From an archaeon GW2011_AR19 (GTDB lineage Archaea; Nanobdellota; Nanobdellia; Pacearchaeales; GW2011-AR1): DNA of 45,538 nt. Positions 2,367 through 19,010 of this stretch are shown here, one piece after another. Every line of letters begins with the position of its first letter. The stretch's first letter is position 1. The stretch lies in assembly GCA_000806015.1 (NCBI GenBank), contig JWKY01000012.1, positions 1 through 45,538 on the forward strand, given 5' to 3'. A program made the position numbers and the translations under genes. The notes beneath the pieces were generated by a model. The model saw only the letters and a program-made list of their open reading frames with translations, did no database searches and was not told the origin of the DNA.

Positions 2367-2449
2367 TAAAATATACCTACTTTGGGTATAAAATTTACCG
2401 AAAAGTTTATAAGGATTAAAATATACCCAATTTGGGTATAAAATTTACC
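2365..2449 (+). promoter_or_regulatory. two 35-bp direct repeats 50 bp apart with a 19-bp palindrome
   Basis: The sequence attaaaatatac-N4-tttgggtata-aaatttacc occurs at 2365-2399 and 2415-2449. The second copy has a perfect 9-bp dyad around one base (TATACCCAA T TTGGGTATA, 2422-2440); in the first the left arm is degenerate. The dyad lies between a TATA-like AT-rich box and the ATG at 2450, where a repressor could block transcription of the downstream gene pair. Confidence 0.6.
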
Positions 2450-2878: not shown

Positions 2879-3473
2879 AGACTTAATCGCTTATGCATCA
2901 TCTTTTGTTTCATTTATTTTGTCAAAGATTAAGGCAAAAGAGATTATTTTATTTGGGTCTGCAGCAAGAGGAGAGGCAGGCAAAGAAAGCGATATTGATT
3001 TATTTGTAAATGTTGAAAATAATGAAAAAGAGATTAAAAAAACAATTAATAAAGAAATTAATAAATTCTATAAATCAAAAATTGCAGATGCTTGGATTTT
3101 AAAAGGAATAAAAAATCCTCTTGCAGTTAAAGTAGGAAATCTTGATAAATGGAAATTAAAAAGGAGCATTATAAGTGAAGGAATAGTTCTGTATGGAAGA
3201 TATAAAGAGAGTCCTGAAAAAATGAGAGGCTTTAGCTATTTTAATTTATCTTCAATAAAAAATATTGCAAAAAGAAATTTTATACTGAGAAAATTATTCG
3301 GCAGGAAAGAAAAGGGTTATTCTGCAGAAGGGCTTCTTAAAAAGACAAATGGAAAAAAATTATCAAGTTTATCTTTTGTAATTCCAATAGAGCATACTCA
3401 AGAGACCATAAATTTATTGAACGCTAATAAAATTGATTATAAATTTTTTGAATTTTGGAGTGATCAAATTTAA
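2859..3473 (+). CDS. MNT-type nucleotidyltransferase domain protein
   Basis: About 205 aa. The N-terminal domain has the polymerase-beta-fold signature ILFGSAARGEAGKESDIDLF, that is GSxxxG followed by DxD. The C-terminal half (after IVLYGRYKES) is basic and ends with a stretch around SSLSFVIPIEHTQETINLL that may be a helix-turn-helix. MNT proteins usually act as antitoxins that AMPylate or otherwise inactivate a HEPN RNase. Start ATG could be 2859 or 2865. Its 3' end overlaps the convergent E1-like gene by 4 bases. Confidence 0.75.
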   Translation: MKMLKSKDLIAYASSFVSFILSKIKAKEIILFGSAARGEAGKESDIDLFVNVENNEKEIKKTINKEINKFYKSKIADAWILKGIKNPLAVKVGNLDKWKLKRSIISEGIVLYGRYKESPEKMRGFSYFNLSSIKNIAKRNFILRKLFGRKEKGYSAEGLLKKTNGKKLSSLSFVIPIEHTQETINLLNANKIDYKFFEFWSDQI

Positions 3474-4480: not shown

Positions 4481-5051
4481 TTGAAATTATCTCTCCATAT
4501 TTAATTTTCTTATCTTTTTGTGGAGCAAACATAACTTTTCCTTTATCATCTATGGGAGCAATAATCTTATAATTTTTTAATTTTTTTCTTAATAAAGAAT
4601 CTTCCCTTAAATGCCAGCATCCAATAATAATTATAATTGGTTTATTTGTTTTTTCTTTACATTCTAAGATTTTAGAGAGGTGGTATTTTTCTCTTTTCTT
4701 AATTATTTCATTTAATTTTCTTTCCTCTTCTTTTGTAAGTTCTTTTTGATTTTTAATTTTTTTTTGCAAATAATCATCAAATCCAAAATTATGGAAATCT
4801 ATTCCGATTAGATTAATTTTGTTTTCAAAACACAATTTTATTAGTTTTTCAACATCATTAAAAGAGGTCATATTAGAAATATCTCTCTTTTTTAGAATTT
4901 CCTTAAACTTATCTTCTGTATCTAATTTTAAATTTTCTAATTCTTCACTTAATACAAATTCTGGTTTTATTAATTCTATAATTTCTTTTTGCTTTAAAAA
5001 ATCATTTACAAAAGAATGAGTGTTGCCTATAAAAATAAAAGAAAAGTCCAT
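4458..5051 (-). CDS. Tiki/TraB/ChaN-like protein, putative RiPP maturation enzyme
   Basis: About 197 aa with two GxxH-type motifs, one at the N-terminus (FIFIGNTHSF) and one near the C-terminus (IIIIGCWHLRED), with acidic and Arg residues between (LSEEL, GIDFHNF, REKYHLSK). This pattern recalls the TraB/PrgY, Tiki and EreA/ChaN superfamily, whose members include metal-dependent proteases and esterases. No signal peptide or membrane helix is seen, so it is probably cytoplasmic. The frame could start at TTG 5069, but ATG 5051 is more likely. It sits between the peptide gene (stop 5071) and the E1-like gene, which suggests leader cleavage or product inactivation. The family call is by motif only. 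Confidence 0.55.
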   Translation of the reverse strand: MDFSFIFIGNTHSFVNDFLKQKEIIELIKPEFVLSEELENLKLDTEDKFKEILKKRDISNMTSFNDVEKLIKLCFENKINLIGIDFHNFGFDDYLQKKIKNQKELTKEEERKLNEIIKKREKYHLSKILECKEKTNKPIIIIIGCWHLREDSLLRKKLKNYKIIAPIDDKGKVMFAPQKDKKIKYGEIISNDAETEN

Positions 5052-5070
5052 TTTATATTCCAAAGACAAA

Positions 5071-5220
5071 TTACATCCAATATTTAATATTTGTTGGGCC
5101 CATATAAGCGCTCTCTTCTACTTTTAGGAGTCCTTTATAAAGAGGTTTTTCCACAAGTAAAAGTTTTGCTTCTTTTGTCTTTAGTTCAACTTTTTTCAAA
5201 ACTTTCTCAAGTTGTTCCAT
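5071..5220 (-). CDS. putative RiPP precursor peptide A (49 aa)
   Basis: The peptide starts MEQLEKVLKK and ends YMGPTNIKYWM. The N-terminal part is lysine/glutamate-rich and amphipathic, as expected for a leader; the last about 15 residues (GPTN, KYWM) differ in composition and are the probable core. Residues 1-10 match precursor B at 18570 in 8 of 10 positions, and the DNA upstream is almost the same. It is first in a minus-strand operon with a Tiki/TraB-like protein and an RRE-containing E1-like enzyme. A TATA-like box lies about 25 nt upstream of the ATG, so the transcript is probably leaderless. No other peptide of this kind is known to me in archaea. Confidence 0.7.
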   Translation of the reverse strand: MEQLEKVLKKVELKTKEAKLLLVEKPLYKGLLKVEESAYMGPTNIKYWM

Positions 5221-5275
5221 GCTTTTTTAATGTATAACTTCTATTTAAGCTTTTTGATTGTAGTTATTTTATAAT
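5221..5275 (-). promoter_or_regulatory. promoter of RiPP-like locus A
   Basis: On the minus strand a TTAAATA box (5242-5248) lies about 25 nt from the ATG at 5220, the usual distance from an archaeal TATA box to the transcription start. The 26 nt at 5223-5248 are identical to 18755-18780 upstream of precursor B, at the same 2-nt spacing from the ATG. Similarity continues weakly about 25 nt further upstream. Confidence 0.7.
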
Positions 5276-5286
5276 TAAAACACTTT

Positions 5287-7767
5287 TCATTCAAAACTTT
5301 CAAAAGCTCTTACAATAATACTGCACTGTCCGGGAAGAGGCTGATTTCCAAATTCATCTTTGCATTTAATGAAATATTTTTTGTTTGCCTGCCATGAAGT
5401 GTAGTGAATTGACTCTCCGATTTCATTCATTGCAGTTCCGTCTGCAAAATTATAAGTGCATCCAAGATTTGTTTGAGAAGTATAAACGCATTGCGCAGGC
5501 TCGTCGGTTATAACTTTTAAATTATTCACGTCGTAATATGCTCTCGCGACTACTGGCGCTTCTCTGTCTGTAACAAGAGTAAATTTTATATTTCCTTCAT
5601 CGCTATTTAATCCAGCATCAAAGCATCTTATGCTGTAATTATAAAATCCTTCAGAAAGAGGAATTCTCTGAGTATTTACATTTACAAAACCTGAACTTCC
5701 CTCATTATAAAAATCAATCCAGTTTCCTCCAAACTCGTATTGACATATTGATTTTCCATTGTCTGCTCCAAATTTAGCTTTTGCTTCCAGTTTTACATTT
5801 ATAGTTGAAACAGAATCTTTTATTGTCGCTCCACTTTGTTTTCCATTGATAGTTATTTCATCCAATACTAACGGCTCTGTTCCCTGAAGTTTTAAAACAT
5901 GTGATTGTTCATTTGCATATCTTGCTCCTTTGTCTGTAGATGTCCACCATGGCTTGTCATTACATCTTATATATACTTTATTTTCAACTCTGTCTTTCAT
6001 GCCTTCTAACTTCCCAAGACATCCATAACTGAATGGCGGAAACATATAATCTCCTTCTGTTTGTGAACATTGATTCATTTCAAATTGCATTGCATCATAA
6101 TTTAAATCTTCAAAACTCCATTTGCATTCGGCAGGTTCATTTGTATATATTTGCAAATTTGCTTCAGACTGATTGTATTGCAAAAATTTTCCTTCAAGAT
6201 TAGTTCCCAAAATTACTGGCGGGAATGCATCCGGTCCGTCCTGAACGCAGAATTCCATAATATACTCGTCTACATTTGAGATTCCATTTGCGCTTTCACA
6301 TCTTATAAAAAATTCTTGATTCTGGCCATTTGTAATTTGAGTTATAGGAATTCCCGATGCTGTTTGGCTTTCTACACTCGGAGCTGCAACATGCGGAAGT
6401 TTTAATATATGTTCATTTTCAAATCCTTCAAAGCTAGTCATTGAAGCAATCATCTCTTCATAACTTGAAGTTCTCTCTGTATCTATTTTACAATCTGCAT
6501 ATTTAGTTGTATTAATTCCAAGAGTAACTGAAGAGTAAGGGAGAATACATCCATTGGAAGAAGAATCTTTTGTATAAAATATTTTGACTCCTGTAACTAC
6601 TCCCGACAATGGTCTGTATTCATAATCAGCTGAAGGCAAAACTTTCTCTAAAGCAGTAATTTTCGGAGGGAAAATATCATCAGGATCTTTCCAGACGCAC
6701 ACTTCCTGAACACTGCCCGGATTTACTATTTCACATCCTTTTCCAAAACTCCTGCATTGATATTCAGTGCATCCAAATTCTAATTCATTACATAAATCAC
6801 AATCACCCCCTCCAACATCAGGCTCCCATGCTTCAACAAGATAATTGAAAACTTCTTTTGAATAATTTTCAAATGAAGCTAAAGTGATAAATAGTGCAAC
6901 TACGAGTGCGACAATTAATCCAATTCCGAAAGTTCCAATTCCTAAAAGAGTGCCCCCGGTAGCGATCGTAGCTCCAGTAGCAACAGTAGCGCCAAGAGCA
7001 GTAGATGTTCCAACCGCAACGCCAGCAGCAGTGCCGGCAGCAAAACCTATAGCTGAAGCAGTTGATGCGCTCCTCATATTTCTTACATCTGCTCCTACAA
7101 TCCATTTAAAAATTGCCCAATTTATCGCAGCTCCGAGAGCTGAGCCTGCCGCTGAAATTGCAAGTTGTCCTCCAAAAGTCTTGCTTAATGCTCTCTTTGC
7201 TACTTCCTCTCCTACCTTTTCCGTTGTCTTTCCTGAAAGTTTTAATATTTCTTTTCCAAAAAGTTTCACTTCCCCAGTATTAATCAATTCAGTTACTTTA
7301 GAGGCCACAATACCGCCCCCTGTAGTTAAAAGCCAATTATTTACTTTATTTTTCCCCTTATCACTAAGCTCATCCTTTCCAGTCTCATTTTTTTTAGTAT
7401 CGTCTTCGTCCAATAATTCTTTGTTTATGATCTTGCCTTCACTATCTCTAATTACATAATATTTTTTTCCGTCTATTGTTTCAACCTTTCCAGTTACTTT
7501 TTCTTCTTTATCTTCACCCGGGGTTGTTTGTGTAGTGATTGGAGGGATTTCTTCTCTATTGATTTCTGCCCAATAAGCACCTTCTCCTTGGGATAAATTT
7601 GCATTCTGCCCGCTCACAATTCCCACACCTCTCGCAATTTCAATTCCTTGAGATTTTCCGATTTCTCCAATCATGAAACTAAATGCAAAAATTCCAATTA
7701 ATAAAATTAATATTTGTGTTAAACCTAAAGTTTTATTTAATTTCATATTTCCTCTTTTAATTTTCAT
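5287..7767 (-). CDS. large membrane-anchored cell-surface protein, unknown function
   Basis: An 826-aa protein. It has an N-terminal hydrophobic helix (ILILLIGIFAFSFMIG), a Thr/Asp/Lys-rich linker, a long glycine/alanine-rich hydrophobic block (residues about 195-315, with GLIVALVVALFITLA) that probably spans or inserts in the membrane, and an approximately 500-residue outer part with scattered cysteines. Within the latter a motif like EPAECKWSF / EPAQCVYTS recurs, suggesting repeated Ig-like or cysteine-bridged domains. ATG 7767 gives MKIKRGNMK; the ATG at 7746 (MKLNKTLG) is equally possible. It is probably the last gene of a surface locus with the genes at 12136 and 9873. No family recognised. 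Confidence 0.75.
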   Translation of the reverse strand: MKIKRGNMKLNKTLGLTQILILLIGIFAFSFMIGEIGKSQGIEIARGVGIVSGQNANLSQGEGAYWAEINREEIPPITTQTTPGEDKEEKVTGKVETIDGKKYYVIRDSEGKIINKELLDEDDTKKNETGKDELSDKGKNKVNNWLLTTGGGIVASKVTELINTGEVKLFGKEILKLSGKTTEKVGEEVAKRALSKTFGGQLAISAAGSALGAAINWAIFKWIVGADVRNMRSASTASAIGFAAGTAAGVAVGTSTALGATVATGATIATGGTLLGIGTFGIGLIVALVVALFITLASFENYSKEVFNYLVEAWEPDVGGGDCDLCNELEFGCTEYQCRSFGKGCEIVNPGSVQEVCVWKDPDDIFPPKITALEKVLPSADYEYRPLSGVVTGVKIFYTKDSSSNGCILPYSSVTLGINTTKYADCKIDTERTSSYEEMIASMTSFEGFENEHILKLPHVAAPSVESQTASGIPITQITNGQNQEFFIRCESANGISNVDEYIMEFCVQDGPDAFPPVILGTNLEGKFLQYNQSEANLQIYTNEPAECKWSFEDLNYDAMQFEMNQCSQTEGDYMFPPFSYGCLGKLEGMKDRVENKVYIRCNDKPWWTSTDKGARYANEQSHVLKLQGTEPLVLDEITINGKQSGATIKDSVSTINVKLEAKAKFGADNGKSICQYEFGGNWIDFYNEGSSGFVNVNTQRIPLSEGFYNYSIRCFDAGLNSDEGNIKFTLVTDREAPVVARAYYDVNNLKVITDEPAQCVYTSQTNLGCTYNFADGTAMNEIGESIHYTSWQANKKYFIKCKDEFGNQPLPGQCSIIVRAFESFE

Positions 7768-7790
7768 TTTTATATTTTTCTTTTAAAATT

Positions 7791-8360
7791 TCAGTAAAAT
7801 TTCTTAGCAACTTTCTCTATTTTTACTTCATTATTGATTAATTTTCCAAGTTCATACTCTTTTTTAGCCAAATTTATCATGCTCAAAGAGTCTTTGCGGG
7901 AATCAAATATCTCTTTTGTTCTTCTTACAAATGCTTCCTCAAAACGATTTTCAAGTTCGTCTTTTGTTAGTTTTTTCCCTCTATATAATACTTCTGGGGG
8001 AGATTTACAATAATCTATTTGGGAATAATCAATAAGTCCTAAATTATTATGAACAGTAAAAAATTCCACAATCTTCTCTATGTCTTGACACGCTCTCAGT
8101 TCTTCTGTTCTATGACCTAAGATTACTACAAAATCTTTTGTTTCTTTATTAATAAGATAACGCAGAGTTAGTAAATATTTCTCCCCATCTTTTAAGATTA
8201 GTGATTTTTCTATAGAATATGTTTCATTATAGTTATTATTTATACTATAATAAACTTGATATTCTTTATGTTGGTTTTCGGAATTTTGCGCATCCGCATT
8301 TCCAAAAAACCCAAGAGTTGCTACTGCGCCAATTAAGAGTTTGTTTTTTAGTGTTTTCAT
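7791..8360 (-). CDS. small secreted protein of the MKTLKNKLL family
   Basis: About 189 aa from the ATG at 8360, with a signal peptide (MKTLKNKLLIGAVATLGFFG, cut near ADAQ-N). The mature part is Tyr/Asn-rich with two lone cysteines, and ends in a lysine-rich helical region (FVRRTKEIF...DSLSMINLAKKEYE) that matches the C-terminus of the protein at 9146. DNA of the signal peptide and of the 20 bases before the ATG is almost the same as for that gene. It lies between two large surface-protein genes. Function unknown; upstream ATG 8384 is possible but adds residues before the signal. Confidence 0.7.
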   Translation of the reverse strand: MKTLKNKLLIGAVATLGFFGNADAQNSENQHKEYQVYYSINNNYNETYSIEKSLILKDGEKYLLTLRYLINKETKDFVVILGHRTEELRACQDIEKIVEFFTVHNNLGLIDYSQIDYCKSPPEVLYRGKKLTKDELENRFEEAFVRRTKEIFDSRKDSLSMINLAKKEYELGKLINNEVKIEKVAKKFY

Positions 8361-8401
8361 TATAAAGTTACTATAAATTTTCATATTTTTAAAGTTTTGT
8401 A

Positions 8402-8737
8402 TTAGTATTTTATTTCAATTCCTTCTTTTACAGCTTGCTGAACAATCCCTAATTGATTTATTCTTTTTTTAATTTCTTCTGGAGTATAACAAATAATATC
8501 TAAATTTTGTTTTTTGTCCCATAATCCATATGCTCTTGAAATTCTTTCCCTGAATTCAACACCCTGAAAATTTTCAGAGATTATTATTAAATCAACATCG
8601 CTTCCTTCTAAATGTTCCCCTCTCGCTCTGCTTCCAAATAATATAATTTTCTGCGGCTTAAATTTTTTTAAAAACTTTAAATGTTTTTTAATCAACTGAT
8701 ATGTTTTTTTATCTATTTTATTTGCTGTTTTATCCAT
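8402..8737 (-). CDS. MNT nucleotidyltransferase (antitoxin type)
   Basis: A 111-aa minimal nucleotidyltransferase with ILFGSRARGEHLEGSDVDLI (GSxxxG and DxD at about residues 37-52). The end QQAVKEGIEIK is the same as in the MNT at 12994. Minimal NTases of this kind pair with HEPN RNases and can neutralise them by modifying a tyrosine. It overlaps the upstream HEPN gene (8713-9093) by 25 bases and is cotranscribed with it. The pair is wedged between secreted-protein genes, consistent with insertion as a cassette. Confidence 0.85.
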   Translation of the reverse strand: MDKTANKIDKKTYQLIKKHLKFLKKFKPQKIILFGSRARGEHLEGSDVDLIIISENFQGVEFRERISRAYGLWDKKQNLDIICYTPEEIKKRINQLGIVQQAVKEGIEIKY

Positions 8738-9093
8738 TTTATTAATCTCCCGGATTTAATTAAATAATCTTGCGCTTTTCCTTTTGAATAAAGTTTGTAA
8801 GGTGCGTCTCCGGCAACATCAGGATACCTCGTTGTCACAAATTCAGGGGATAAATCTTGAAATATTCCAAAAAATCCAGAAGGAATTTTTGTTTCTTTTG
8901 CTAAATATATTAAAGAATGTGTTGGTCCTGCAGATTTGCCTTTTTTAATCATAAAAAAAGCTTTTAACGTTTTTTCAACACTTTGCTGGCAGAAAAAAGC
9001 TGAAACATAATACTCTTTAATCTTAAAATTTTTTTCAGCAACTTCAAAATCTTTTTCTGTCTGTTCCCATAAATTTTTAATTTCTTCTCTCAT
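8713..9093 (-). CDS. HEPN domain protein
   Basis: A 126-aa helical protein with the HEPN features MREEIKNLWEQTEKDFEVAEKN, then YYVSAFFCQQSVEKTLKAFF, then TRYPDVAGDAPYKLY. HEPN proteins paired with MNT genes are probable RNA-cleaving toxins. The start MREEI(K/R)N is the same as in the HEPN at 13290. The canonical Rx4-6H motif is not obvious; a TRYP segment takes a similar place in archaeal members. Confidence 0.85.
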   Translation of the reverse strand: MREEIKNLWEQTEKDFEVAEKNFKIKEYYVSAFFCQQSVEKTLKAFFMIKKGKSAGPTHSLIYLAKETKIPSGFFGIFQDLSPEFVTTRYPDVAGDAPYKLYSKGKAQDYLIKSGRLIKWIKQQIK

Positions 9094-9145
9094 TTTTTAT
9101 CAGCCTCTTTTATTCACCTTTTTTTTGTTCATTTTAATTTTTTAT

Positions 9146-9817
9146 TTATTCCGGCATTCCAGCTTTTGCTCTCTGAAAAAACACATTAGATATTTCAGGT
9201 TTAATTTCAACCATATTCCCATTTTCGTCTTCTATAATTTTCCACCTATTATATTCTTTTTTAAGCAAATTAACAAATTCTAAAGAATCTTGACATGAAT
9301 TTATTAATTCTTTAGCTCTTTTTACATATTCTTTACCGAATATTTCATAAGCTTCTTGTTCTGATGAAACTGATAAAGAAGATGCTAGAGTATCTTTTGG
9401 AGTAAATTCTATTCTTTCATAAAACATAGTACCGATAGGCACTTTCGTAAGTATTTCCTTGTTATGAGTAAATGAAAATTTTTCTTGCACCTGTTTTCCT
9501 GAATCTCTGATGTATTTTCCACTGGAATTTTCAATTTGGAGATCATTTATTACAGCTATTACAATTCTTGACTTATCCTCTAAATATATAATCCTCGCTT
9601 TTTTCCCGCCCAGTTCTCCCCAGAAAAGCTCTCTTTTAAAATGCCCCTCTTCAAAACAATCAAAAGTTTTATTATTATTTTCATCCCTGCACCCAAATGT
9701 TATCTTCATCTCGTCTTGATTTAAATTTTTAGACTCCGTATTTTGAGCATCCACATTTCCAAAAGCTCCAAGAGCTGCCATTGCTCCAATTAAGAGTTTG
9801 TTTTTTAGTGTTTTCAT
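9146..9817 (-). CDS. small secreted protein of the MKTLKNKLL family
   Basis: About 223 aa from ATG 9817, with a signal peptide (MKTLKNKLLIGAMAALGAFG, cut near VDAQ-N). The mature part begins with a calcium-loop-like DENNNKTFD between two cysteines and ends with a helical region (YVKRAKELINSCQDSLEFV, then KKEYNRWK) shared with the gene at 7791. An in-frame ATG at 9865 would add 16 residues. The bases upstream of the chosen ATG match those of the gene at 7791, supporting a copied promoter plus signal-peptide unit. Function unknown. Confidence 0.7.
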   Translation of the reverse strand: MKTLKNKLLIGAMAALGAFGNVDAQNTESKNLNQDEMKITFGCRDENNNKTFDCFEEGHFKRELFWGELGGKKARIIYLEDKSRIVIAVINDLQIENSSGKYIRDSGKQVQEKFSFTHNKEILTKVPIGTMFYERIEFTPKDTLASSLSVSSEQEAYEIFGKEYVKRAKELINSCQDSLEFVNLLKKEYNRWKIIEDENGNMVEIKPEISNVFFQRAKAGMPE

Positions 9818-9872
9818 TATAAAGTTACTAAATATTTTGGTGTTTTTAAATATTTGTTTATTCATTTTATTT

Positions 9873-12032
9873 TTATAAACCCCTATACCCTAATCCTGAT
9901 ATTGATATTGGTTTGCCTGCCCTTATATCTGGTCCCCTATAAAGAAGTTTTTTCTCTCCAATAAGTTCTTTTTCTTCCTGTTTTTGCGTTAATTTAAAAA
10001 AGCTTACAATTATTTTTTCAGAATCAGGATTTCCAATCCAATTAAAAGTCTTACCGCCGATTTTTTTTCCGTTGTAAGCGTGTGGTTTATATCCGCAATC
10101 CCCAAGAGATCTTGTTCTTTCTGAAATTGCGTCCAGCCATTGCTCATGAGTATAAAATTGTTTAAATCTTCTTTCTTGTGAATCTTTTCCGCCTCCGCAA
10201 TTTATTGTATTTCCTTTTTCAGCACCACCTTTCCAGTTATCAATTATATCTGGTTCGCCCGCTTTTTTCTTACAATAATATCCCTCTCTTTTAGAAAAAT
10301 ATCCATCTTGAACTTTAGTATCCAAATTTCCATCTTCAAGCTGAAATGCTTTTAAAGTTTCTATGTCTGCATATTTTTTATCATTCTTGCTTCCATACCA
10401 AGGAATTGCCCAGCAATTATCTATACATCTGTTTGAAGCTCTTTGAACATCATCTTTAGCAAATTCTTCTCTTTCTGTTCCTACGCCTGTTTCAAACAAT
10501 ACATTTTCTGTTATGCTTAAAGCTTTGCAATCATTTTTGCCGTCTGCTGTCCAAAACTCAGTTCCGGGAGTAATTAAAGGAAGGCAAGTTCCCTGCAAGT
10601 CATTATATCTTGCTGTGTTATTTTCATATATTTTTCCAAGTTCAGTTTCAACTTCATCAAGACCGTATCCAATAAACAATCCTCCCAGAGCATATCCTGG
10701 AAGCCATTTACAAAGGTCATTTTCTTCGCATGATTCTGCATTATTATTGTCAAAACATTTTGCTGCAGGATTATGATAACAAGCAGCAGATTTTTTTTCT
10801 GTAGCGGGATCTTTGCCTTCCCTACAAACATAATTTCTTGCAAAATCCCCGCATGTTTCAGGAATAATTTCTCCATCATAACATTTTAATCTTGTATATT
10901 CACTTCCCGGAAGATTATATGTATCAGATCCTCTCGCTATTTTTTCTTTTTCTTTTTTATCTTCATTTAGATTAAGAGGGATTCTGGGATAAACTCCTGG
11001 AGTTTTAGCGCACCAACTTTCTCCGTGTTTATATTCTTCATCTTCATAAACACAACCTAAATCTCTGCAAACATTATTTCCATATTTAGGTTTTGTAGGC
11101 ATTCCATTTTCTCCACTTTTATATTCAGCGCCTATAGTTCCTAATCTATAACTGCAATCTCCGCAAGTTGAACTTGGCGTGCTCCCAACAGAACAAGTTG
11201 GAGTTTGAATTTTTGTCCAATAATCTCCGACTAATGATCCCTCAAATCTTGACGAATCATAAATATTTGCGCGATTTCCGCAAGTGTCAACAAAATAAAC
11301 TTTATCTCTATAAATTATTGTTTTTGTGCTGTCTTTTGCGCAATCTGAAAGGTATCCTCCAGTATTAGGGTCTTGAGCGGTGCATAAAAGTCTGGTGTGA
11401 AAATTTCCCTTTAAAGAGCTGCAGCCGCTTTGAGTAGTGCGGACGCAATCTATTTTTAAGGTTGTTTCAGGCGCAGAACTTCCCCCTCCAAAAAGATTTT
11501 CAAAAAATCCTGAAGGCGCAGATTCGGAAGTAATTGCATTTTCTAAAACACAAGCACCTTCTGTTGGTGTTGTGTCTAAAGCAAGGCAGGCAGATTGTGT
11601 ATTTATATCAGCTCTAAAATTAACATTAACTCCATAATCACTCGCAAGACCTTTACATGTGGCCTGATTTACAAATGAAATTTCCTGTCCAAGAATGCAA
11701 CATCCCGGTCTGCAAGCCTGAATATTATCTTTAGGTTCTTGACTCCAACTATTTCCCTGCGATTCACAAAGTGCTTGAGGAGTATTTTGAGTGCATGTTC
11801 CGGAATCCCCGCTTATGCAAGTTCCTACTTTACAAAAGGCAGTTATTTGACATGCTTGTGGAGCCCATCTAAAATCTTTATCAACTTTATTTTCAGGAAC
11901 GTTCTGACACCAAGTGTTATCGGTTGTTTTTTCAGCGCAAAAAAGAGTTTCAGATGAAACAAAAGAGCTAAAGCTGATTAAACTTACAAATAAAATTAGC
12001 GAAAAAATTATCGCTCTTTTTTTAATTTTCAT
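9873..12032 (-). CDS. large cysteine-rich secreted protein
   Basis: A 719-aa protein with a signal peptide (MKIKKRAIIFSLILFVSLISF). The mature part is very cysteine-rich (about 40 Cys) with several repeats of a C...GCC / C..C pattern (RPGCCILGQ, CGDCSYRLG, CRDLGCVYED), which suggests many disulfide bonds. There is no C-terminal membrane helix; the end (RAGKPISISGLGYRGL) is glycine-rich. It lies just after the pilin-like 255-aa gene and upstream of the 826-aa gene, so the three may form one surface structure. No characterised homologue recalled. Confidence 0.75.
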   Translation of the reverse strand: MKIKKRAIIFSLILFVSLISFSSFVSSETLFCAEKTTDNTWCQNVPENKVDKDFRWAPQACQITAFCKVGTCISGDSGTCTQNTPQALCESQGNSWSQEPKDNIQACRPGCCILGQEISFVNQATCKGLASDYGVNVNFRADINTQSACLALDTTPTEGACVLENAITSESAPSGFFENLFGGGSSAPETTLKIDCVRTTQSGCSSLKGNFHTRLLCTAQDPNTGGYLSDCAKDSTKTIIYRDKVYFVDTCGNRANIYDSSRFEGSLVGDYWTKIQTPTCSVGSTPSSTCGDCSYRLGTIGAEYKSGENGMPTKPKYGNNVCRDLGCVYEDEEYKHGESWCAKTPGVYPRIPLNLNEDKKEKEKIARGSDTYNLPGSEYTRLKCYDGEIIPETCGDFARNYVCREGKDPATEKKSAACYHNPAAKCFDNNNAESCEENDLCKWLPGYALGGLFIGYGLDEVETELGKIYENNTARYNDLQGTCLPLITPGTEFWTADGKNDCKALSITENVLFETGVGTEREEFAKDDVQRASNRCIDNCWAIPWYGSKNDKKYADIETLKAFQLEDGNLDTKVQDGYFSKREGYYCKKKAGEPDIIDNWKGGAEKGNTINCGGGKDSQERRFKQFYTHEQWLDAISERTRSLGDCGYKPHAYNGKKIGGKTFNWIGNPDSEKIIVSFFKLTQKQEEKELIGEKKLLYRGPDIRAGKPISISGLGYRGL

Positions 12033-12135
12033 TTTTTTGGCATTTTTAGTTTTCTTTTACATTGTAGCTTTTCTTTTTTAAAAAGAAAAACCCATTTTCA
12101 TTGAATTCTTTTTTTTAAATTTTTTATTTAACATT

Positions 12136-12903
12136 TTAACCAAACGGACCTATTATCAAACTTCTTGAAGCAAACTGAAATTTGTCATCGGTGGCTTTAT
12201 TTGTTATAACATAGATTGTTCCATCGGTTGTTCTCTTAGGTTTTTCACATTTTATTTCGGAATACAAGTCCATGTAGTAATCACAATCAGCATCTCCATA
12301 TCTTGTTTCCCAATTCAATATATTCTGTGCAATAGCTGTAAGTTCATAAAGATTATTGTTCAAAATTACTCTGAATGTTTCGCGTCTCTGAGTTTCATCT
12401 GCTTTTGAAGATGTAAATTCATAATCCATTGTTGTCACAATTCTTTGCGGAAGTAATTCAACTATCGTCTTTCCAGGTTTGAAATTAGCCACATAATTAT
12501 TTTCCACATAAGTATCTCTCAAAGATTTAAAACAAAAATCAACATCTTCTTCAATACTTTTTTTAATTTCATCTTCAATATGCTCTTTTAAAAAAGGTAT
12601 TTGAGTTACGCAGGGTTTTAAATCTTCATTTGTATAACATAAGAATTGCAATTCAATATCCTGATATAAAATACTTGGCGACGGCTCCAAACTCCCTCCC
12701 TGCAACGAGATTAATTCAACATTTTCTTTTATTGTATCTTCAAGACAGGTCTGAATAAAATTTTCAGGAGATTCAGGTTTTTCAAATCCAACAGCAGTTC
12801 TTAATTTAGGGATTGCAAAAAGCAAAGCAACTATTGCCACAACAACTATTGCAACGATGATAAAGATTGTAAGTTGAGCTTTTTTTCCTCTTTTAATTTT
12901 CAT
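12136..12903 (-). CDS. membrane-anchored protein with pilin-like N-terminus
   Basis: A 255-aa protein that starts MKIKRGKKAQLTIFIIVAIV and continues into a 20-residue hydrophobic helix. A short basic head followed by KKAQLT and the helix resembles archaeal class III (prepilin-like) signals and is common in DPANN surface proteins. The mature domain has about seven cysteines (TCLED, LCYTNED, PCVTQ, DADCDYY) and ends IIGPFG. As the first gene of the surface locus it may anchor or initiate assembly of the 719- and 826-aa proteins (inference). Confidence 0.75.
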   Translation of the reverse strand: MKIKRGKKAQLTIFIIVAIVVVAIVALLFAIPKLRTAVGFEKPESPENFIQTCLEDTIKENVELISLQGGSLEPSPSILYQDIELQFLCYTNEDLKPCVTQIPFLKEHIEDEIKKSIEEDVDFCFKSLRDTYVENNYVANFKPGKTIVELLPQRIVTTMDYEFTSSKADETQRRETFRVILNNNLYELTAIAQNILNWETRYGDADCDYYMDLYSEIKCEKPKRTTDGTIYVITNKATDDKFQFASRSLIIGPFG

Positions 12904-12993
12904 TTTTTTGTTTTATTTTATTTCAATTCCTTCTTTAATTCGGCTTTTCCCTGAAGACGAATTTGTCAAAAATTTTCCTGATTTTTGTTCCAT

Positions 12994-13311
12994 TCATTTT
13001 ATTTCAATTCCTTCTTTTACAGCTTGCTGAACAATGGTTATTTTATTTTTTAATTTATTAAATTCATTGGTTGTTAAGCAAATAAAATCAACAGGATAAT
13101 CAAAATTCCAATCTTCATAAAAACCAATTCCTCTCTTAAATGACTTTTTTCTTTTAAAATTATCACTCACAACAATTAAATCAAAATCACTCCACGGATG
13201 TATTTTGCCTTTTGCTCTGCTTCCAAATAATATCAATTTTTTAATTGGAATTTTCTTTTGCAATTTTTCTTTAAATTCCTTGACAATGTTTATATCTTCT
13301 TTTTTAGCCAT
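12994..13311 (-). CDS. MNT nucleotidyltransferase (antitoxin type)
   Basis: A 105-aa minimal nucleotidyltransferase with LILFGSRAKGKIHPWSDFDL (GSxxxG, DxD), ending QQAVKEGIEIK as in the copy at 8402. It overlaps the upstream HEPN gene (13290-13664) by 22 bases. Downstream (about 12905-12945) is a second, displaced copy of the coding sequence for KEGIEIK without the rest of the gene, a scar of duplication or recombination. Confidence 0.85.
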   Translation of the reverse strand: MAKKEDINIVKEFKEKLQKKIPIKKLILFGSRAKGKIHPWSDFDLIVVSDNFKRKKSFKRGIGFYEDWNFDYPVDFICLTTNEFNKLKNKITIVQQAVKEGIEIK

Positions 13312-13664
13312 TCTAAAATCTCCTTAGCAATAAAAATAAATTCTAAAGCATCTTTTTCTTTAAATTTTTTATAAGGGGGTTCATTTTCTAAAATTCCATA
13401 TCTGGATTCTATATACACTTTTGAAAGCTTTTCACAATTTAACAATAAATTTTCCGGCAATCCTATTTTCCTGCCAAGAATTACTAAATCATGCATTTTA
13501 ATAAGTTTCTTTTCTTTTTTAATAATTAATGCTTTTAGTCCTTTTTCAGCTGCTTGCTGGCACATAAAAGCGCATAAATAATAATCTTCGCTTTTCAAAC
13601 TATTCTCCGCGCTTTTTAAATCCCTTTTTGCCTGCTCAATCCAATTTCTAATTTCTTCTCTCAT
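13290..13664 (-). CDS. HEPN domain protein
   Basis: A 124-aa helical protein: MREEIRNWIEQAKRDLKSAE, then YYLCAFMCQQAAEKGLKALI, then MHDLVILGRKIGLP and ESRYGILENEPPYKKF. This is the common archaeal HEPN layout. It is the probable toxin (RNase) of the pair with the MNT at 12994. It diverges well from the HEPN at 8713 beyond the shared core motifs, so the two pairs were probably acquired separately rather than copied in place. Confidence 0.85.
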   Translation of the reverse strand: MREEIRNWIEQAKRDLKSAENSLKSEDYYLCAFMCQQAAEKGLKALIIKKEKKLIKMHDLVILGRKIGLPENLLLNCEKLSKVYIESRYGILENEPPYKKFKEKDALEFIFIAKEILEWLKKKI

Positions 13665-13798
13665 TTTTTATTTTTCAATAATTATTTTTGAATCTAATTT
13701 ATTTTTTATAAAATTCTCTTCCCCTCTTTCCATTATTATTCTATGAATTTTTAATTTAAAAACATTTAGTTTATATTTTCTAAATTTTCAACATTGAT

Positions 13799-15205
13799 TT
13801 ATTTTCTAAAAGTGTATTTTAGTCCGGTGTTTATTATAGAATGTCTTGGAGAATAAATGATTCCTCTTCTATACAGAGTTTCCATCTCCCTCTTTAAACC
13901 AATCAACCCGTCAAAAGAAAGGGAAAGATTCTTTTCATGACCATTTTCTTTAGAAAAAGGAAAAATTTCAATTCCAAGACCAAGATAGAAAGGTCCAAAG
14001 AATTTTTTTGTTTCCCAAGAGCTTTTTCTGATTTCAAATGAAGATTGTCCTTTAATTCCGTCTTTAATATAATATTCTTCTACATTATCAGTTGTTGTTA
14101 TTAGCATTTTTTGTCTTAAGAATCCAAAACTTGTAAACATTTCAAAAGCAGGAGAAACATAACCCATATTCAATCCAAGACGGACAGTATTCTTTGCTGA
14201 AATATTTAGGTGATAGAACATATCGGAAACGAAGTATTTACTACCACTATATCCAGCCACTTCATTTTCGTAATAATCTCTTCCAGAAACTTCAAAATCT
14301 ATTTTTGAATTCATAAAAAACATATCAAGATCCATTGCAAATCCTTTTCCTTTTTTATTTGTTATTTGTGGGCTTATTCCAAAATATGACCCAACATGCG
14401 AACTTTTAGTATTTAGCACAACTCCGCCCCCAATTTTTAATTTTGCTTTTGGTTTTCTGGCTTCTTGTTCTATTCTAATTTTCTCCTGCTTTTCATATTC
14501 TATTTTTCTAGCTTCTTCTTGTTCTTTTTTAATCTTCTCTCTTTCTGGCTTTTCCCCGATATAATTTTCAATTTTCTTAATCTCTTCTTCAGAAAGAAGT
14601 TTTTCTATAGGGGTTCTTGAATTCCCAGCAAGTCTTCCATCAGCCATTTTCAACCTATAAGAATATTCTTTTCTAACAAGTTCTTCTAATTGTCTTGAAT
14701 TAAATCTGCTGAATTCTTTTTGGACTGATGAAAATTCTTTTATTCTTTCAGAAAAACCCTCTCCAATCTGTTTTGCTTCTTTTTGGTCTATCCCATTATA
14801 ACTTTTGCTTATAATTTTGTCGCAATTATTAATTGACTCTCGGCAATAGTCGTAAATCTCTAAAACATAATCTATTTTTTTTGTATCAAAATTAAATGAA
14901 AATTTTTCTTGAGAGTTTATTGGAGAACCAATCTTTTGAACATTAATATAATCATAAACGCCGTCCTCATTTGTATCTCCATAATAAAACCAGATGTTGC
15001 CCTTGTTATTCTCTTTAGGTTCATTAGTTAACCATGCCAAGACATGTTTTTTAAATGCTGGATGACCAACATAATTTGCGTATTCTCCTGTTTCAAAATA
15101 AAAATTTAAATTTGGAAAAAGTTTTTCTTTTGAAGTTTGAGAGGCATCTTGGGCAAAAGATTTGTTTGTTGCTCCGAAAATTAAAATTATTATAATCTTG
15201 TCCAT
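13799..15205 (-). CDS. secreted protein with predicted outer-membrane-type beta-barrel
   Basis: A 468-aa protein. It has a short hydrophobic start (MDKIIIILIFGATNKSFAQ-DA) as signal peptide, an N-terminal domain with the calcium-loop-like DTNEDGVYD, a helical charged stretch (residues about 210-250), and a C-terminal half of about 220 residues of alternating strands: KLKIGGGVVLN, YFGISPQI, TVRLGLNMGYVSPAFEM, GPFYLGLGIEIFPFS, SLSFDGLIGL. It ends INTGLKYTFRK, much like the last strand of bacterial outer-membrane barrels. Bacteroidota proteins often show both this barrel type and signals ending in AQ. In an archaeon it would be unusual. The first half is duplicated at 1722-2366. An in-frame TGA just upstream supports the ATG at 15205. 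Confidence 0.65.
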   Translation of the reverse strand: MDKIIIILIFGATNKSFAQDASQTSKEKLFPNLNFYFETGEYANYVGHPAFKKHVLAWLTNEPKENNKGNIWFYYGDTNEDGVYDYINVQKIGSPINSQEKFSFNFDTKKIDYVLEIYDYCRESINNCDKIISKSYNGIDQKEAKQIGEGFSERIKEFSSVQKEFSRFNSRQLEELVRKEYSYRLKMADGRLAGNSRTPIEKLLSEEEIKKIENYIGEKPEREKIKKEQEEARKIEYEKQEKIRIEQEARKPKAKLKIGGGVVLNTKSSHVGSYFGISPQITNKKGKGFAMDLDMFFMNSKIDFEVSGRDYYENEVAGYSGSKYFVSDMFYHLNISAKNTVRLGLNMGYVSPAFEMFTSFGFLRQKMLITTTDNVEEYYIKDGIKGQSSFEIRKSSWETKKFFGPFYLGLGIEIFPFSKENGHEKNLSLSFDGLIGLKREMETLYRRGIIYSPRHSIINTGLKYTFRK

Positions 15206-15234
15206 TTCGTCTCAACCCTTGGAGTAAGAAGCGG

Positions 15235-15492
15235 TCATATTTCAAATTCGTCTTTTTCTTTATTTTTTGCAGCGACGATAGAGAGAATGTCTTTCTCTGT
15301 TAAAGTTTTTCTTCCTTCAAGCATAAGTTTTCTTACCATTAATTTAGAATCTTCTTTTAGTTCATCAATGATTTTTTTTTCTATGGTTTTTAATGCTTTT
15401 TTTTCAAATCTTTTTATGCCCCATTTTTTTAATATTTCTGTAAGTCGGTTTCTTTTTATTAATGAATTATCATTATTGGCATTATTTCTCAT
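15235..15492 (-). CDS. small histone-fold-like protein
   Basis: An 85-aa basic protein. The stretch FEKKALKTIEKKIIDELKED, then a central helix, then EGRKTLTEKDILSIVAAKN matches the end of archaeal histones, where GRKT precedes the last helix. The N-terminus (MRNNANNDNSLIKRNR) is longer than in HMf-type histones. Archaeal histones wrap DNA as dimers and larger assemblies; the loop residues needed for standard dimers are only partly visible. It lies between an MNT gene and the barrel gene on the same strand. It could also be a distantly related DNA-binding antitoxin. Confidence 0.6.
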   Translation of the reverse strand: MRNNANNDNSLIKRNRLTEILKKWGIKRFEKKALKTIEKKIIDELKEDSKLMVRKLMLEGRKTLTEKDILSIVAAKNKEKDEFEI

Positions 15493-15498
15493 TTTTGA

Positions 15499-16050
15499 TT
15501 AATGTATTAATACGTCTTTTTTATTGAAATTTACTTTGAAATTATCAAAAAGCTCATCAAAAATCTTTTCAGAATTTAAAGGTGAGATAAAAACCTGATT
15601 AGCTACCCATTTTCCGTTATTGCTTTCAACAATTCCTTTTTCGCCTCTTTTTCCTCTTAAAATATTCACTAATCTTACTTTATTTGAAGGAGAAAGCGAA
15701 GTAAGAACATAGTTATACATTACTTTATTTGAAAACCTAAAATTCTCAGAAATAAATTTTTTGTTCTTTAAGCTGTATCCTTCTCTTATTAAAGTATGAA
15801 TAATAGATGGAGAATTAATAAAAAATTCTTTAGCAGTAATTACGCTTATATGAAAACCTTTTATTGAATTTATTTTTTCAAGAAACTCCTTTGAAGGCTT
15901 TTCGTATAATATCGCTGCAATGTCTACATCTCCTGGAATTAATTTTCCTTTTATAGCAGATCCAAACAGAATAATATCAATTACCTTTTTATCTGAAAAA
16001 AGATTTTTTAGCTTATTCTTTATTAATGAAAGATTTAAGATAGCGGGCAT
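15499..16050 (-). CDS. MNT nucleotidyltransferase with extra C-terminal domain
   Basis: A 183-aa protein. The N-terminal NTase motif is IILFGSAIKGKLIPGDVDIA, with the GSxxxG loop and a DVD metal site. The C-terminal half (from about residue 95) has YNYVLTSLSPSNKVRLVNIL, a probable winged-helix or helical DNA-binding segment, and ends in a Lys/Asp-rich tail. The same architecture occurs in the MNT at 2859, so the two may belong to one subfamily. It overlaps the upstream helical gene by 38 bases. Confidence 0.75.
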   Translation of the reverse strand: MPAILNLSLIKNKLKNLFSDKKVIDIILFGSAIKGKLIPGDVDIAAILYEKPSKEFLEKINSIKGFHISVITAKEFFINSPSIIHTLIREGYSLKNKKFISENFRFSNKVMYNYVLTSLSPSNKVRLVNILRGKRGEKGIVESNNGKWVANQVFISPLNSEKIFDELFDNFKVNFNKKDVLIH

Positions 16051-16342
16051 ATTCTCTTATTTTTATTGTATCCTCCTTTTTTATTTTAAAATTATAGGAT
16101 TTGACATAAATTTGGAATAATTCAGAAACTTTAGAGTAAATTTCTTTAAAATGCCTGCTTAATAAAGAAAATCTTTGAGAATGATTTTTTGGAAAGATTT
16201 TTATTTTTGAATAAATGAGATAATCGCATGTCACAACAATTGCCTTAAAAAAATCAGTTGCAGAGGCATTAAATCTTTCTTTTTTTAAGTTATCCTCTCC
16301 AGAATCTAAAAATTCATTTATATTCTCAATAATCTCTTCCAT
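16013..16342 (-). CDS. helical HEPN-like partner of the MNT at 15499
   Basis: A 109-aa all-helical protein (MEEIIENINEFLDSGEDNLKKERF, then ASATDFFKAIVVTCDYLIYS, NHSQRFSLLSRHFKEIYSKV). Size, helix pattern and overlap with an MNT gene fit a HEPN-type or HEPN-like toxin. The overlap and order match the other MNT pairs of the window. A RHFKEIY segment could be the catalytic site, but this is speculative. Confidence 0.6.
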   Translation of the reverse strand: MEEIIENINEFLDSGEDNLKKERFNASATDFFKAIVVTCDYLIYSKIKIFPKNHSQRFSLLSRHFKEIYSKVSELFQIYVKSYNFKIKKEDTIKIREYARYLKSFINKE

Positions 16343-16519
16343 TAATACATTAATGGATTTTTATATTTTTAAGCTTTTTGGTTAATGTATTAATTATTTT
16401 AATTAATTACTTTCGCGCAAACGCTCGCTAACACTCCTCGGATTTTCAATAAATCTGTTATCTTCGCTTTTTATTTTGAAGTTCAATAAGTTAATAAATT
16501 AACAAATATATGCAAAATT

Positions 16520-17263
16520 ATGAAATTTGATTTTAAATTAGCGCCTATTAAATACGATGTTGAAAAAATATATCATTTTTTAAACCCTGATGAAGAAGAT
16601 TGGAATTGGAGCAGATATATTAAAAATTGTTATTCTGAATTAAACAAAATGGATTCAAAAGAAAAAATTAAAAAAATTTTAATAAAGGTTAGAGAAGAAA
16701 ATAAAAAAAAGTTACAAGATAAATTATTTAATTATAAAAAAGAATTTGAAAAAATTTCTAATAAAATTATTTCTGAATTTAAGGAAATTTTAGAGATAAA
16801 TGCGATTAAAACCCATAAAATAGATATTCTAATCTCATTAAGCCCAATAAATCCTTATAATTTAGAAAAAAAAGAATTTTCAGTGTATTGGAATTTTCCA
16901 ATTAAAGATATGATTGCTATTTCTATACATGAGATTTTTCATTTTATTTATTTTGAAAAATGGAGGGAAATTTTTCCGAAAACAACTATTAAAGATTTTG
17001 AACCTCCAAGTTTAATTTGGCATTTAAGTGAATTGGTTGTTCCAGCAGCATTAAATGATAAAAAAATTCAAAATGTTTTTAAATATCTTCATAGAACTTA
17101 TGAGGAATACACTAAACGAAGAATAAATAAAAAAAGTATAAATAAAAAAAGTATAAATGAAATTATCTTAGATTTATATAGTAAAAAAAGGCCTTTCTCA
17201 TTATTTATAAAAGAAGCGTATAATTTTGTATTAAAACATGAAAAAGAGATTCAAAAGGTTTAA
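16520..17263 (+). CDS. HExxH metallopeptidase-like protein next to RiPP-like locus B
   Basis: A 247-aa protein with no signal peptide. The motif SIHEIFHFIYFEKW (about residues 136-149) is a zinc-protease HExxH. Downstream WHLSELVVPAAL supplies a possible third ligand (Glu). The C-terminus has a short tandem repeat (INKKSINKKSIN, from an 18-bp DNA duplication near 17121-17156). The rest is lysine-rich and helical. It converges on the radical SAM gene, overlapping its end by 4 bases. If it is part of locus B, it could cleave the leader or act on the product; this is inference from position only. No closer family recognised. Confidence 0.6.
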   Translation: MKFDFKLAPIKYDVEKIYHFLNPDEEDWNWSRYIKNCYSELNKMDSKEKIKKILIKVREENKKKLQDKLFNYKKEFEKISNKIISEFKEILEINAIKTHKIDILISLSPINPYNLEKKEFSVYWNFPIKDMIAISIHEIFHFIYFEKWREIFPKTTIKDFEPPSLIWHLSELVVPAALNDKKIQNVFKYLHRTYEEYTKRRINKKSINKKSINEIILDLYSKKRPFSLFIKEAYNFVLKHEKEIQKV

Positions 17264-18555
17264 TTTCTAAAAAAATAAGAACACATCCAAGAATCCGGGG
17301 CATTGATAGAATCATTAAAAAATAAAGATTTTGCTTTACATCCTCCAGCGCAGACATTTAATACTTTACAATCTTTACATTCCGAGCTGGAGATATATTC
17401 TTTTTTTCTAAAATAATTGAGTAATAGAGAATTTTCCCAAATATTCGTTAATGATTTTTGCTTAACATTTCCAAGAATATATTTTCCAAAGTTTAACATG
17501 GGACAAAGAGATACAGAGCCGTCACTTCCTAAATAAAAGAAACTTTCCCCTAATCCACAATAGCTATTTATCTTTCTTTTTTGACCCTCGGGAGTTTTAA
17601 TAAATAATTCTCCATCAAATACTTTTTCATATAATCTTGAAATTTTTTTCATTGCCCCCATTTTATCTCTTAAATTATAAGTAGGAATTTGAACGCCTCT
17701 TCCCTCTGGAACTATTTCATCAAAAGAAATATCATTTTTATCCATCCCTAAATATTTAAGATAAATCAATGTATTTTTTATTGAATCATAAGAATCATTT
17801 ATGTCTTTAAATAAAACTATATTTGCCCTTGTTCTTATTCCTTGTTTTAACATTTCTTCTAAATTATCTAAAACTTTTTTATTGTCTGTTTTTCTTATCT
17901 TTTTATATTCTTCTGGATTGACAGAATCTATACTCACTGCCACAAATTCTGGATTAAGCAAGGATAATTCTTTTATATGTTCTTTTTCCATTAAAATCCC
18001 ATTTGTAAAAATACTAAAATCTATCATAGAAGAGTATGTTTCTTTGAGAATATCAAATAAGTCATTTTTTATAAAAGGCTCTCCCCCAGTTATTCTAATT
18101 TTTAATGCTCCTAATTTTTTAATTTCTGAGATTAAATCAAAAATATTCTCTTTTTGCAATTCTTTTGTTTTAGTCTGAGGATTATAACAATGAATACAAT
18201 TGAGATTACATTTTTTTGTTATCTCAAAAAACACCGAATCTAAAGAATATACGGAATTATCTTTATTTATAATTCTTAATTTACTTTTTTCATCTTTTGC
18301 AGAGTATTTTATAATGCCTTTTTTGTTTAATTTTTCAATTATGTTGAGAGTCTTTTCTAGAATCTCGGCTTTATTATTCTTAATATTATTTGAAATTTCT
18401 TCTATCGTCTTTTTTCCATCACATTTTTTTAATATTTCTGTAAGATCTTGATTGCAAATTATATGCTTTTTAGAAATTAAATCATATAAAATAGAACCAG
18501 AACGAGTTAATTTAAGTATGCTCCTTTCTAAATAAGGTCTTTCATTTATTTCCAT
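17260..18555 (-). CDS. radical SAM/SPASM peptide-modifying enzyme with PqqD-like domain
   Basis: A 431-aa protein in three parts. Residues about 19-86 form a PqqD/RRE-like helical domain (IEEISNNI, EKLNKKGIIKYS) that binds a leader peptide. The radical SAM core has CNLNCIHC (C116, C120, C123) and the SAM-binding GGEP (157-160). The SPASM domain has seven cysteines in the classic order: C333, C351, C393, C396, C402, C406, C425. Such enzymes introduce thioether or carbon-carbon crosslinks in sactipeptides, ranthipeptides and related RiPPs. The gene follows a Cys-rich 60-aa peptide gene by 14 bases on the same strand, its probable substrate. Confidence 0.85.
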   Translation of the reverse strand: MEINERPYLERSILKLTRSGSILYDLISKKHIICNQDLTEILKKCDGKKTIEEISNNIKNNKAEILEKTLNIIEKLNKKGIIKYSAKDEKSKLRIINKDNSVYSLDSVFFEITKKCNLNCIHCYNPQTKTKELQKENIFDLISEIKKLGALKIRITGGEPFIKNDLFDILKETYSSMIDFSIFTNGILMEKEHIKELSLLNPEFVAVSIDSVNPEEYKKIRKTDNKKVLDNLEEMLKQGIRTRANIVLFKDINDSYDSIKNTLIYLKYLGMDKNDISFDEIVPEGRGVQIPTYNLRDKMGAMKKISRLYEKVFDGELFIKTPEGQKRKINSYCGLGESFFYLGSDGSVSLCPMLNFGKYILGNVKQKSLTNIWENSLLLNYFRKKEYISSSECKDCKVLNVCAGGCKAKSLFFNDSINAPDSWMCSYFFRN

Positions 18556-18569
18556 GTTGATTCTTAAAT

Positions 18570-18752
18570 CTATAATTTATACTTAGAATCAACCTCTATT
18601 GAGATATATTCTACTGATGAATAACGCTCTGGTGGAGGGCATGCTCCAGGTGTAGCGCAAGCGCATCTACATCTCATTGAGACCAAATTGTCTTCAACAA
18701 TTTCAAAAACAGGTTCAAACTTTTTCTCCAAAGCTTTTTCAAGTTGTTCCAT
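18570..18752 (-). CDS. putative RiPP precursor peptide B (60 aa, Cys-rich core)
   Basis: The peptide starts MEQLEKALEKK, nearly the same as precursor A at 5071. An acidic leader (FEPVFEIVEDN) follows, then the core MRCRCACATPGACPPPERY with four cysteines close together, and a tail YISIEVDSKYKL. Closely spaced cysteines with a radical SAM/SPASM enzyme 14 bases downstream fit a thioether-crosslinked RiPP (sactipeptide or ranthipeptide type), but the exact chemistry cannot be read from sequence. A TATA-like box about 25 nt before the ATG predicts a leaderless transcript. The tail beyond the core might be removed or be a second, follower part. Confidence 0.8.
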   Translation of the reverse strand: MEQLEKALEKKFEPVFEIVEDNLVSMRCRCACATPGACPPPERYSSVEYISIEVDSKYKL

Positions 18753-18805
18753 ATTTTTTTAATGTATAACTTCTATTTAAATCTTTTGGTTGTTACTATT
18801 TTAGA
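18753..18805 (-). promoter_or_regulatory. promoter of RiPP-like locus B
   Basis: On the minus strand TTTAAATA lies about 25 nt from the ATG at 18752. The 26 nt at 18755-18780 are identical to 5223-5248 of locus A, with the same spacing to the start. AT-rich similarity extends upstream (CAAAAG and AAAATA blocks). Confidence 0.7.
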
Positions 18806-18874
18806 ATTATTAATCTTTTCAGTGAAATTGCTCGTCGGATTTTTTTAATAATTAATTACTTTCGCACTAATCTT

Positions 18875-19010
18875 CTACTCGAACCGACACTCAAAATATT
18901 TTTTACTAATGCTCAATTTAAGTTTGTTTCCGTGTCAGTCCTCTACTCGAACCGACACTCAAAATATTTTTTACTAATGCTCAATTTAAGTTTGTTTCCG
19001 TGTCAGTCCT
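18875..19010. repeat. 68-bp tandem duplication, two copies, overlapping the end of pcna
   Basis: The unit from ctactcgaaccgacactc to gtgtcagtcct occurs at 18875-18942 and again, identically, at 18943-19010. The second copy contains the stop codon of pcna (19003-19005). Identity of the copies suggests a recent event or an active slippage site. It contains gaaccgacac and gtgtcag, a weak inverted repeat that may act as a transcription end for pcna. Confidence 0.85.

Follow-up and report, generated by a model that had tools for sequence, protein, structure and literature searches.

One promoter and leader start at two putative peptide-modification cassettes of a Pacearchaeota-type archaeon

Among the enzymes that act on ribosomally synthesized and post-translationally modified peptides (RiPPs), MccB, PaaA, GrcB, EnfB and IndF combine a RiPP recognition element (RRE) with an adenylating domain, possess catalytic Arg, Lys and Asp residues, and are accompanied by a short, adjacent precursor. 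GrcB, EnfB and IndF work by activating the carboxylate at the C-terminus of their precursors (PMC12250964, PMC12150305), and RREs normally bind a segment of the leader as a β-strand (PMC7470986, PMC12710340). The maturases of sactipeptides and ranthipeptides (CteB, StsB, AlbA, SkfB) join radical SAM and SPASM domains to an RRE and are found with a Cys-rich adjacent precursor. For the NHLP and Nif11 leaders, the use of a single leader type with several types of maturases has been described (Haft 2010, in PMC3023750). Genome mining has listed RiPP clusters of DPANN archaea and archaeal radical SAM RiPPs (PMC12144867); archaea go unmentioned in a review of the ThiF-like enzymes of RiPP pathways. 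Here we report on a stretch of 45,538 nucleotides (the window; contig JWKY01000012.1, C12 in our numbering) from the Pacearchaeota-type archaeon GW2011_AR19. In the explanation that we favour with reasonable confidence, two cassettes for the modification of ribosomal peptides, A and B, lie in the window; their precursor genes share a promoter and the start of a leader.

The shared promoter and leader start

The window is one contig of a 678-kb genome bin that is 74.5% complete; relatives were sought among genomes of the order (n=200) and of the phylum (n=371), in a contig collection and in a viral contig collection. Precursor A (positions 5071-5220, minus strand; 49 amino acids; MEQLEKVLKKVELKTKEAKLLLVEKPLYKGLLKVEESAYMGPTNIKYWM) possesses the leader MEQLEKVLKK... 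and a C-terminal part of the form Y.G.TNIKYWM, while precursor B (an open reading frame at 18570-18752, minus strand; 60 amino acids; MEQLEKALEKKFEPVFEIVEDNLVSMRCRCACATPGACPPPERYSSVEYISIEVDSKYKL) possesses the leader MEQLEKALEKK... and the Cys-rich core RCRCACATPGAC. The translations confirm that MEQLEK is common to both and that eight of the first ten residues are identical. Upstream of each gene lies the same 26-base segment, TTAAATAGAAGTTATACATTAAAAAA, which spans positions -28 to -3, ends 2 nt before the ATG in both cases, and carries a TATA-like box at -28 (5223-5248 at A and, located by a pattern search of the genome, 18755-18780 at B; both on the minus strand). These likenesses had been noticed in a first-pass annotation of this DNA, which mistakenly called the two loci unlinked; they reside on one contig and one strand, with starts that are offset by 13,532 bp.

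Within this genome, the 26-mer has no third site even when up to three mismatches are allowed, the MEQLEK-coding pattern has no third copy, and ATGGARCARYTNGARAAR matches without mismatches only at the A and B loci. By comparison, the best match among 200,000 Markov-simulated pairs reached 18 of 26 bases. Not all of the 26-mer is equally informative: its first ~7 bases constitute the TATA-like box, which is similarly placed in other genes of the genome and in most other A-type loci, whereas the remaining ~19 bases are common neither to other genes nor to A-type relatives. Judged from general archaeal promoter spacing, the transcripts are predicted to start at or near the ATG and hence to be near-leaderless.

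Gapped BLAST places the 26-mer within a duplicated block of ~112 bp (5184-5295 at A, 18713-18827 at B; 92 of 115 positions identical, 80%; E=3e-22) that extends from the intergenic DNA across the promoter to precursor codon ~12. The homology begins at the end of an 826-amino-acid open reading frame upstream of A and ends at leader codon ~12. As a DNA query against the whole genome, the block retrieves two copies only, plus one 23-nt AT-rich match. The proposal made in the first-pass annotation, namely a duplicated promoter-leader cassette with different cores and enzymes, is thus supported: the homology crosses the promoter and breaks off within the codons of the leader. In the available 74.5% of the genome the promoter turns up nowhere else, so that its presence before many unrelated genes, which would have refuted the proposal, was not observed.

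All 26 promoter bases are identical, versus 33 of the 47 bases directly upstream. Since a perfect 26-base match is expected only about once per ten thousand at the latter rate, the shared promoter appears to be under selection, and its unchanged sequence makes joint transcription of both precursors probable. The earlier suggestion of co-regulation is plausible on this indirect ground.

Further precursors of the A family (n=10) were recognized beside TraB-like and/or ThiF genes through the study of the loci and a precursor-profile search. They exhibit an ME.LE-like start, a variable stretch, a Y.GL..VE segment and a nearly invariant Y..G.TSIKYWM end, and all terminate in Met. The search of the 200 order genomes gave a match in ten, which is full-length in nine (this genome included), with one precursor per genome. 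Residues 1-11 of precursor B match the A-family profile, and none of 1987 scored full shuffles reaches its score; the shared leader start thus looks to be of the A type. Past residue 12 the likeness finds no support: among 2000 shuffles in which residues 1-12 were left unchanged, 1888 do at least as well as B against the A-precursor profile, and B lacks both the Y.GL..VE and the TSIKYWM segments that the A-type precursors conserve. A possible remnant of A's KPLYEGLRKVED in the KFEPVFEIVED of B was rejected, as it fares no better than shuffles, and the KY near both C-termini is too short to carry meaning. The core of A is free of Cys, and the C-terminus of B is unlike that of A. Precursor B has no Pfam match, and neither precursor has an NCBIfam match, up to E=0.1, models of the NHLP and Nif11 leaders included.

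A second block shared by the two loci, which the first-pass annotation did not contain, lies at their far sides in the same order and orientation. It is 641 bp in length, 89.4% identical (1728-2368 at A, 14549-15189 at B), and present in exactly two copies in the genome. The copy at A is a gene fragment without a start codon and without its 3' half; that at B is situated inside an intact open reading frame for 468 amino acids (13799-15205). Its identity is a mosaic of stretches of 100% and of 60-80%, as gene conversion can leave. The interiors enclosed by the two blocks differ: TraB-like, ThiF-like and HEPN/nucleotidyltransferase-like genes are found at A, and radical SAM, HExxH, HEPN-like and nucleotidyltransferase genes at B. 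At the DNA level they are unrelated, with no trace of either cassette's enzymes in the other interior.

Enzymes and relatives of cassettes A and B

The second gene of cassette A encodes a TraB/PrgY/ChaN (Tiki superfamily)-like protein of 197 amino acids, a candidate peptidase (4458-5051, minus strand, from the ATG at 5051), which is located between the precursor and the enzyme gene. Its Pfam matches are weak (TraB_PrgY_gumN in five of nine members, ChaN in three of nine; best E 6e-4), and T11-H12, E36, D85 and H147 are invariant. The third gene encodes an RRE-ThiF-like adenylating enzyme of 336 amino acids (3470-4480, minus strand; Pfam ThiF 1.9e-39). Its AlphaFold2 model (pLDDT 84) finds its best Foldseek matches, over the whole length, in MccB and PaaA, the enzymes of microcin C and pantocin A, which are its closest solved structures. 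Residues 1-86 are modelled as four strands, three helices and a further strand (block pLDDT 72-95), an arrangement that makes the N-terminus appear RRE-like; no Pfam RRE model matched it. R162, K175 and D216 are invariant in an alignment of eight sequences and can be paired with EnfB R167, K180 and D225 by motif and spacing.

The ThiF-like protein is present in eight of the 200 genomes of the order. In the scan of the contig collection, relatives with at least 53% identity were found in DPANN archaea only (Pacearchaeota, Woesearchaeota and unclassified Nanoarchaeota bins; 53-82%); beyond these, only remote ThiF proteins from bacteria and one Hodarchaeota bin were retrieved, and no viral relatives were found in the viral contig collection. 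To judge from these sequences, cassette A is a sporadic family of the Pacearchaeota and Woesearchaeota, and a short adjacent precursor co-occurs with the ThiF-like enzyme across the relatives. The cassette is in decay at some loci: the ThiF gene of genome G122 is interrupted, and the 3 kb read from genome G116 (locus L132) contain the TraB-like gene, preceded by a very short open reading frame that ends in SYSDGTSIMYWM, but no ThiF gene, which suggests a reduced form of cassette A. No description of the A family was found in the literature searched.

Cassette A resembles MccB, PaaA, GrcB, EnfB and IndF in its domain composition, its short adjacent precursor and the Arg/Lys/Asp triad. It differs from the RRE-ThiF RiPPs compared by its archaeal origin, its TraB/ChaN-like partner, and the fact that no transporter was recognized nearby. 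Its precursors also end differently, with YWM instead of Asn (MccA), WWIVI (EnfA) or NWYFI (IndA). The microcin C precursor ends in Asn and receives a nucleotide, whereas the A-type precursors end in Met. The pantocin precursor contains an internal EEN. This Glu-Glu-Asn core is missing from A; a VE[ED] element is present, which reads VSS or VES in two relatives. No part of the precursor is more strongly conserved than its C-terminus, and the use of a C-terminal carboxylate by GrcB, EnfB and IndF fits this invariant end of A; on these grounds, the likeliest chemistry by analogy would be that the terminal Met is activated and the peptide is then closed into a ring or capped. To judge by its nearly invariant TSIKYWM end, the A product may well serve as a cofactor or a signal; a fast-evolving toxin seems less likely.

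The enzyme of cassette B (17260-18555, minus strand; 431 amino acids) is, by Pfam and structural matches, a peptide maturase of the radical SAM/SPASM type whose N-terminal domain is probably an RRE. Radical_SAM (5.6e-27) and SPASM (1.4e-11) score above the Pfam cut-offs, the N-terminus matches PqqD (0.037) and PaaA-like_N (0.022) weakly and below them, and the CX3CX2C radical SAM motif reads CNLNCIHC. The longest match among solved structures, over residues 50-420, is to 5wgg, which we take to be the thioether-forming maturase CteB. A single-sequence structure model of the maturase was unusable (pLDDT 31). With its radical SAM and SPASM domains, probable RRE and Cys-rich adjacent precursor, cassette B resembles the CteB, StsB, AlbA and SkfB systems, and its core suggests Cys cross-links introduced by the radical SAM/SPASM enzyme. 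Unlike known radical SAM/SPASM maturases, the B enzyme falls far below the NCBIfam cut-offs (StsB, 113.7 of 625 bits; AlbA, 72.8 of 850; PapB, 69.5 of 340), has no close relative in the order and phylum genomes or in the contig and viral contig collections, and is paired with the core CRCACATPGAC.

Convergent with the maturase gene, a 247-amino-acid putative metallopeptidase with an HExxH motif is encoded on the plus strand (16520-17263). It occurs in 14 of the 200 order genomes, at locus L079 beside a radical SAM gene and a Cys-rich precursor and at L077 beside a radical SAM remnant; elsewhere it is mostly found beside NifS/IscU-like or other genes, and we have not adopted it as a dedicated leader peptidase. 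It is possibly the leader peptidase of cassette B. The L079 locus, from genome G190 of another family, comprises in a row (2815-5794) a Cys-rich precursor (CSCQCACDCVCICDCD), a radical SAM protein, a methyltransferase and an HExxH protein. This row is no more than a loose parallel to cassette B, and its precursor, Cys-rich but with a different leader, was rejected as a relative of B.

How the pair may have arisen

A-type cassettes of other genomes, with enzymes that are up to 82% identical, begin their precursors in a similar way (e.g., METLERTLEKVE, MEKLEKTLE), yet the spacers of their promoters are unrelated; the likeness between A and B therefore arose within this lineage. Since residues 1-11 of B fit the A-family profile, B is the probable adopter, and most likely took over the promoter and leader start of A; the reverse direction is less probable, although no close relatives of B that could speak against it were found. 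In its simplest reading, the locus pair looks like a segmental duplication in which the interior was replaced in one copy.

We suggest, again with reasonable confidence, the following course of events. A segment containing the A promoter and leader start would have been duplicated to a site 13.5 kb away, most likely as part of a larger segment that included the gene now at the far side, and the copy at B would have acquired an unrelated core and unrelated enzymes downstream of codon ~12, with the unchanged promoter probably causing both precursors to be transcribed together. The A peptide would be bound by the N-terminal RRE of the ThiF/MccB-like enzyme and adenylated, most likely at its TSIKYWM-type C-terminus, and would then be cyclised or otherwise capped; the Cys-rich B peptide would probably be cross-linked by the radical SAM/SPASM enzyme.

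Several points weigh against this scenario. The truncated 641-bp copy at A, taken alone, suggests B as the donor at that end, so that copying either ran in different directions at the two ends or left a trace that later decay obscured. Given the lack of close relatives of the B maturase, a different usual leader for its family cannot be demonstrated, and further copies of the blocks could be missing from the incomplete assembly. In addition, dispersed repeats are abundant in this part of the window, and the blocks may have arisen by two small duplications, each independent of the other.

The last point leads to the most serious competitor, which we regard as possible although rather doubtful: B would have captured the promoter-leader block alone through a small duplication or gene-conversion tract, and the 641-bp block would be a separate repeat that by chance flanks both loci on the same side. 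Other dispersed repeats of the region are offset by 4.6 or 1.5 kb, the two blocks are themselves unequal in divergence (89% vs 80% identity) and in offset (12,821 vs 13,532 bp, ~0.7 kb apart), and the mosaic identity of the longer block fits gene conversion. On the other side of the balance, both blocks occur exactly twice genome-wide, at the same two loci; their order and orientation agree, and the interiors that they enclose are of similar size (2.8 and 3.5 kb).

The first-pass annotation had also raised the possibility that both clamp domains recognize one leader and that the two chemistries act on one peptide. The A enzyme has an N-terminal RRE and the B enzyme probably has one as well, and there is a precedent in GRC, where a ThiF-like and a radical SAM enzyme work on one peptide (PMC12150305). 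However, BLASTP detects no similarity between the two N-terminal domains and hhalign gives a probability of 0.5%, a comparison limited by the fact that B is represented by a single sequence. With no similarity detected between the domains and B devoid of the segments that the A family conserves, a common leader start does not by itself imply common recognition; the Cys-free core of A and the differing C-termini speak against exchangeable substrates, and no close B-type maturase is found in the eight further order genomes that encode a full-length A-type precursor. Within A, the conserved Y.GL..VE would be a better candidate for RRE binding than MEQLEK, and the shared start may instead serve the start of transcription or translation, or a common protease. 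We thus deem it quite unlikely that the duplicated promoter and leader form a "slot" whose start is recognized by two unrelated RRE enzymes, with chemistries that are exchangeable downstream and could cross-act, and very unlikely that both RREs actually bind the shared start and the two enzymes act on either or both peptides; nothing in the analysis argues for dual action.

Convergence on a standard archaeal promoter and a merely generic charged start (MEQLEK) is hardly credible, as the TATA-like boxes at similar distances before other genes and A-type relatives do not extend to the ~19 bases past the box, and the alignment statistics refute it.

If the duplication scenario is right, the pair represents a fresh natural case of an exchange of peptide-modification chemistry, with the junction inside the leader codons: promoter and leader start were kept, core and enzymes changed. 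Engineers attempt the same by means of chimeric leaders. As with NHLP and Nif11, one leader type would then be associated with unrelated modification enzymes; unlike these, A and B share only the first ~12 residues together with promoter DNA, through duplication within a genome. The A cassettes moreover add to the RRE-ThiF peptides a compact family from DPANN archaea, small enough for in vitro testing.

Neighbouring genes and repeats

The first 19 kb of the window constitute an island rich in duplications. It contains four pairs of HEPN/nucleotidyltransferase-like genes (2432-3473, 8402-9093, 12994-13664 and 15499-16342), two of which are mutual duplicates. Two tandem 68-bp copies that are 99% identical (18871-19006) lie in the interval that separates the B promoter from a PCNA-like gene. 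An Rfam scan gave no matches within 1-21000. The 468-amino-acid protein that contains the longer block at B has no Pfam match; from an impression of its sequence, the C-terminal half resembles a β-barrel and ends in ...GLKYTFRK, which is odd for an archaeon.

In the relative G038 (L065:7957-8628 and L066:2799-3557), an HExxH protein is encoded immediately upstream of cassette A; its similarity to the HExxH protein at B is weak (E 0.002), and a closer homologue of the latter is present ~13 kb away on that contig. In the relative G052, another probable peptide-modification cluster with two radical SAM proteins and small open reading frames (L064:15290-19898), presumably reminiscent of His-Xaa-Ser systems, lies ~6 kb from cassette A.

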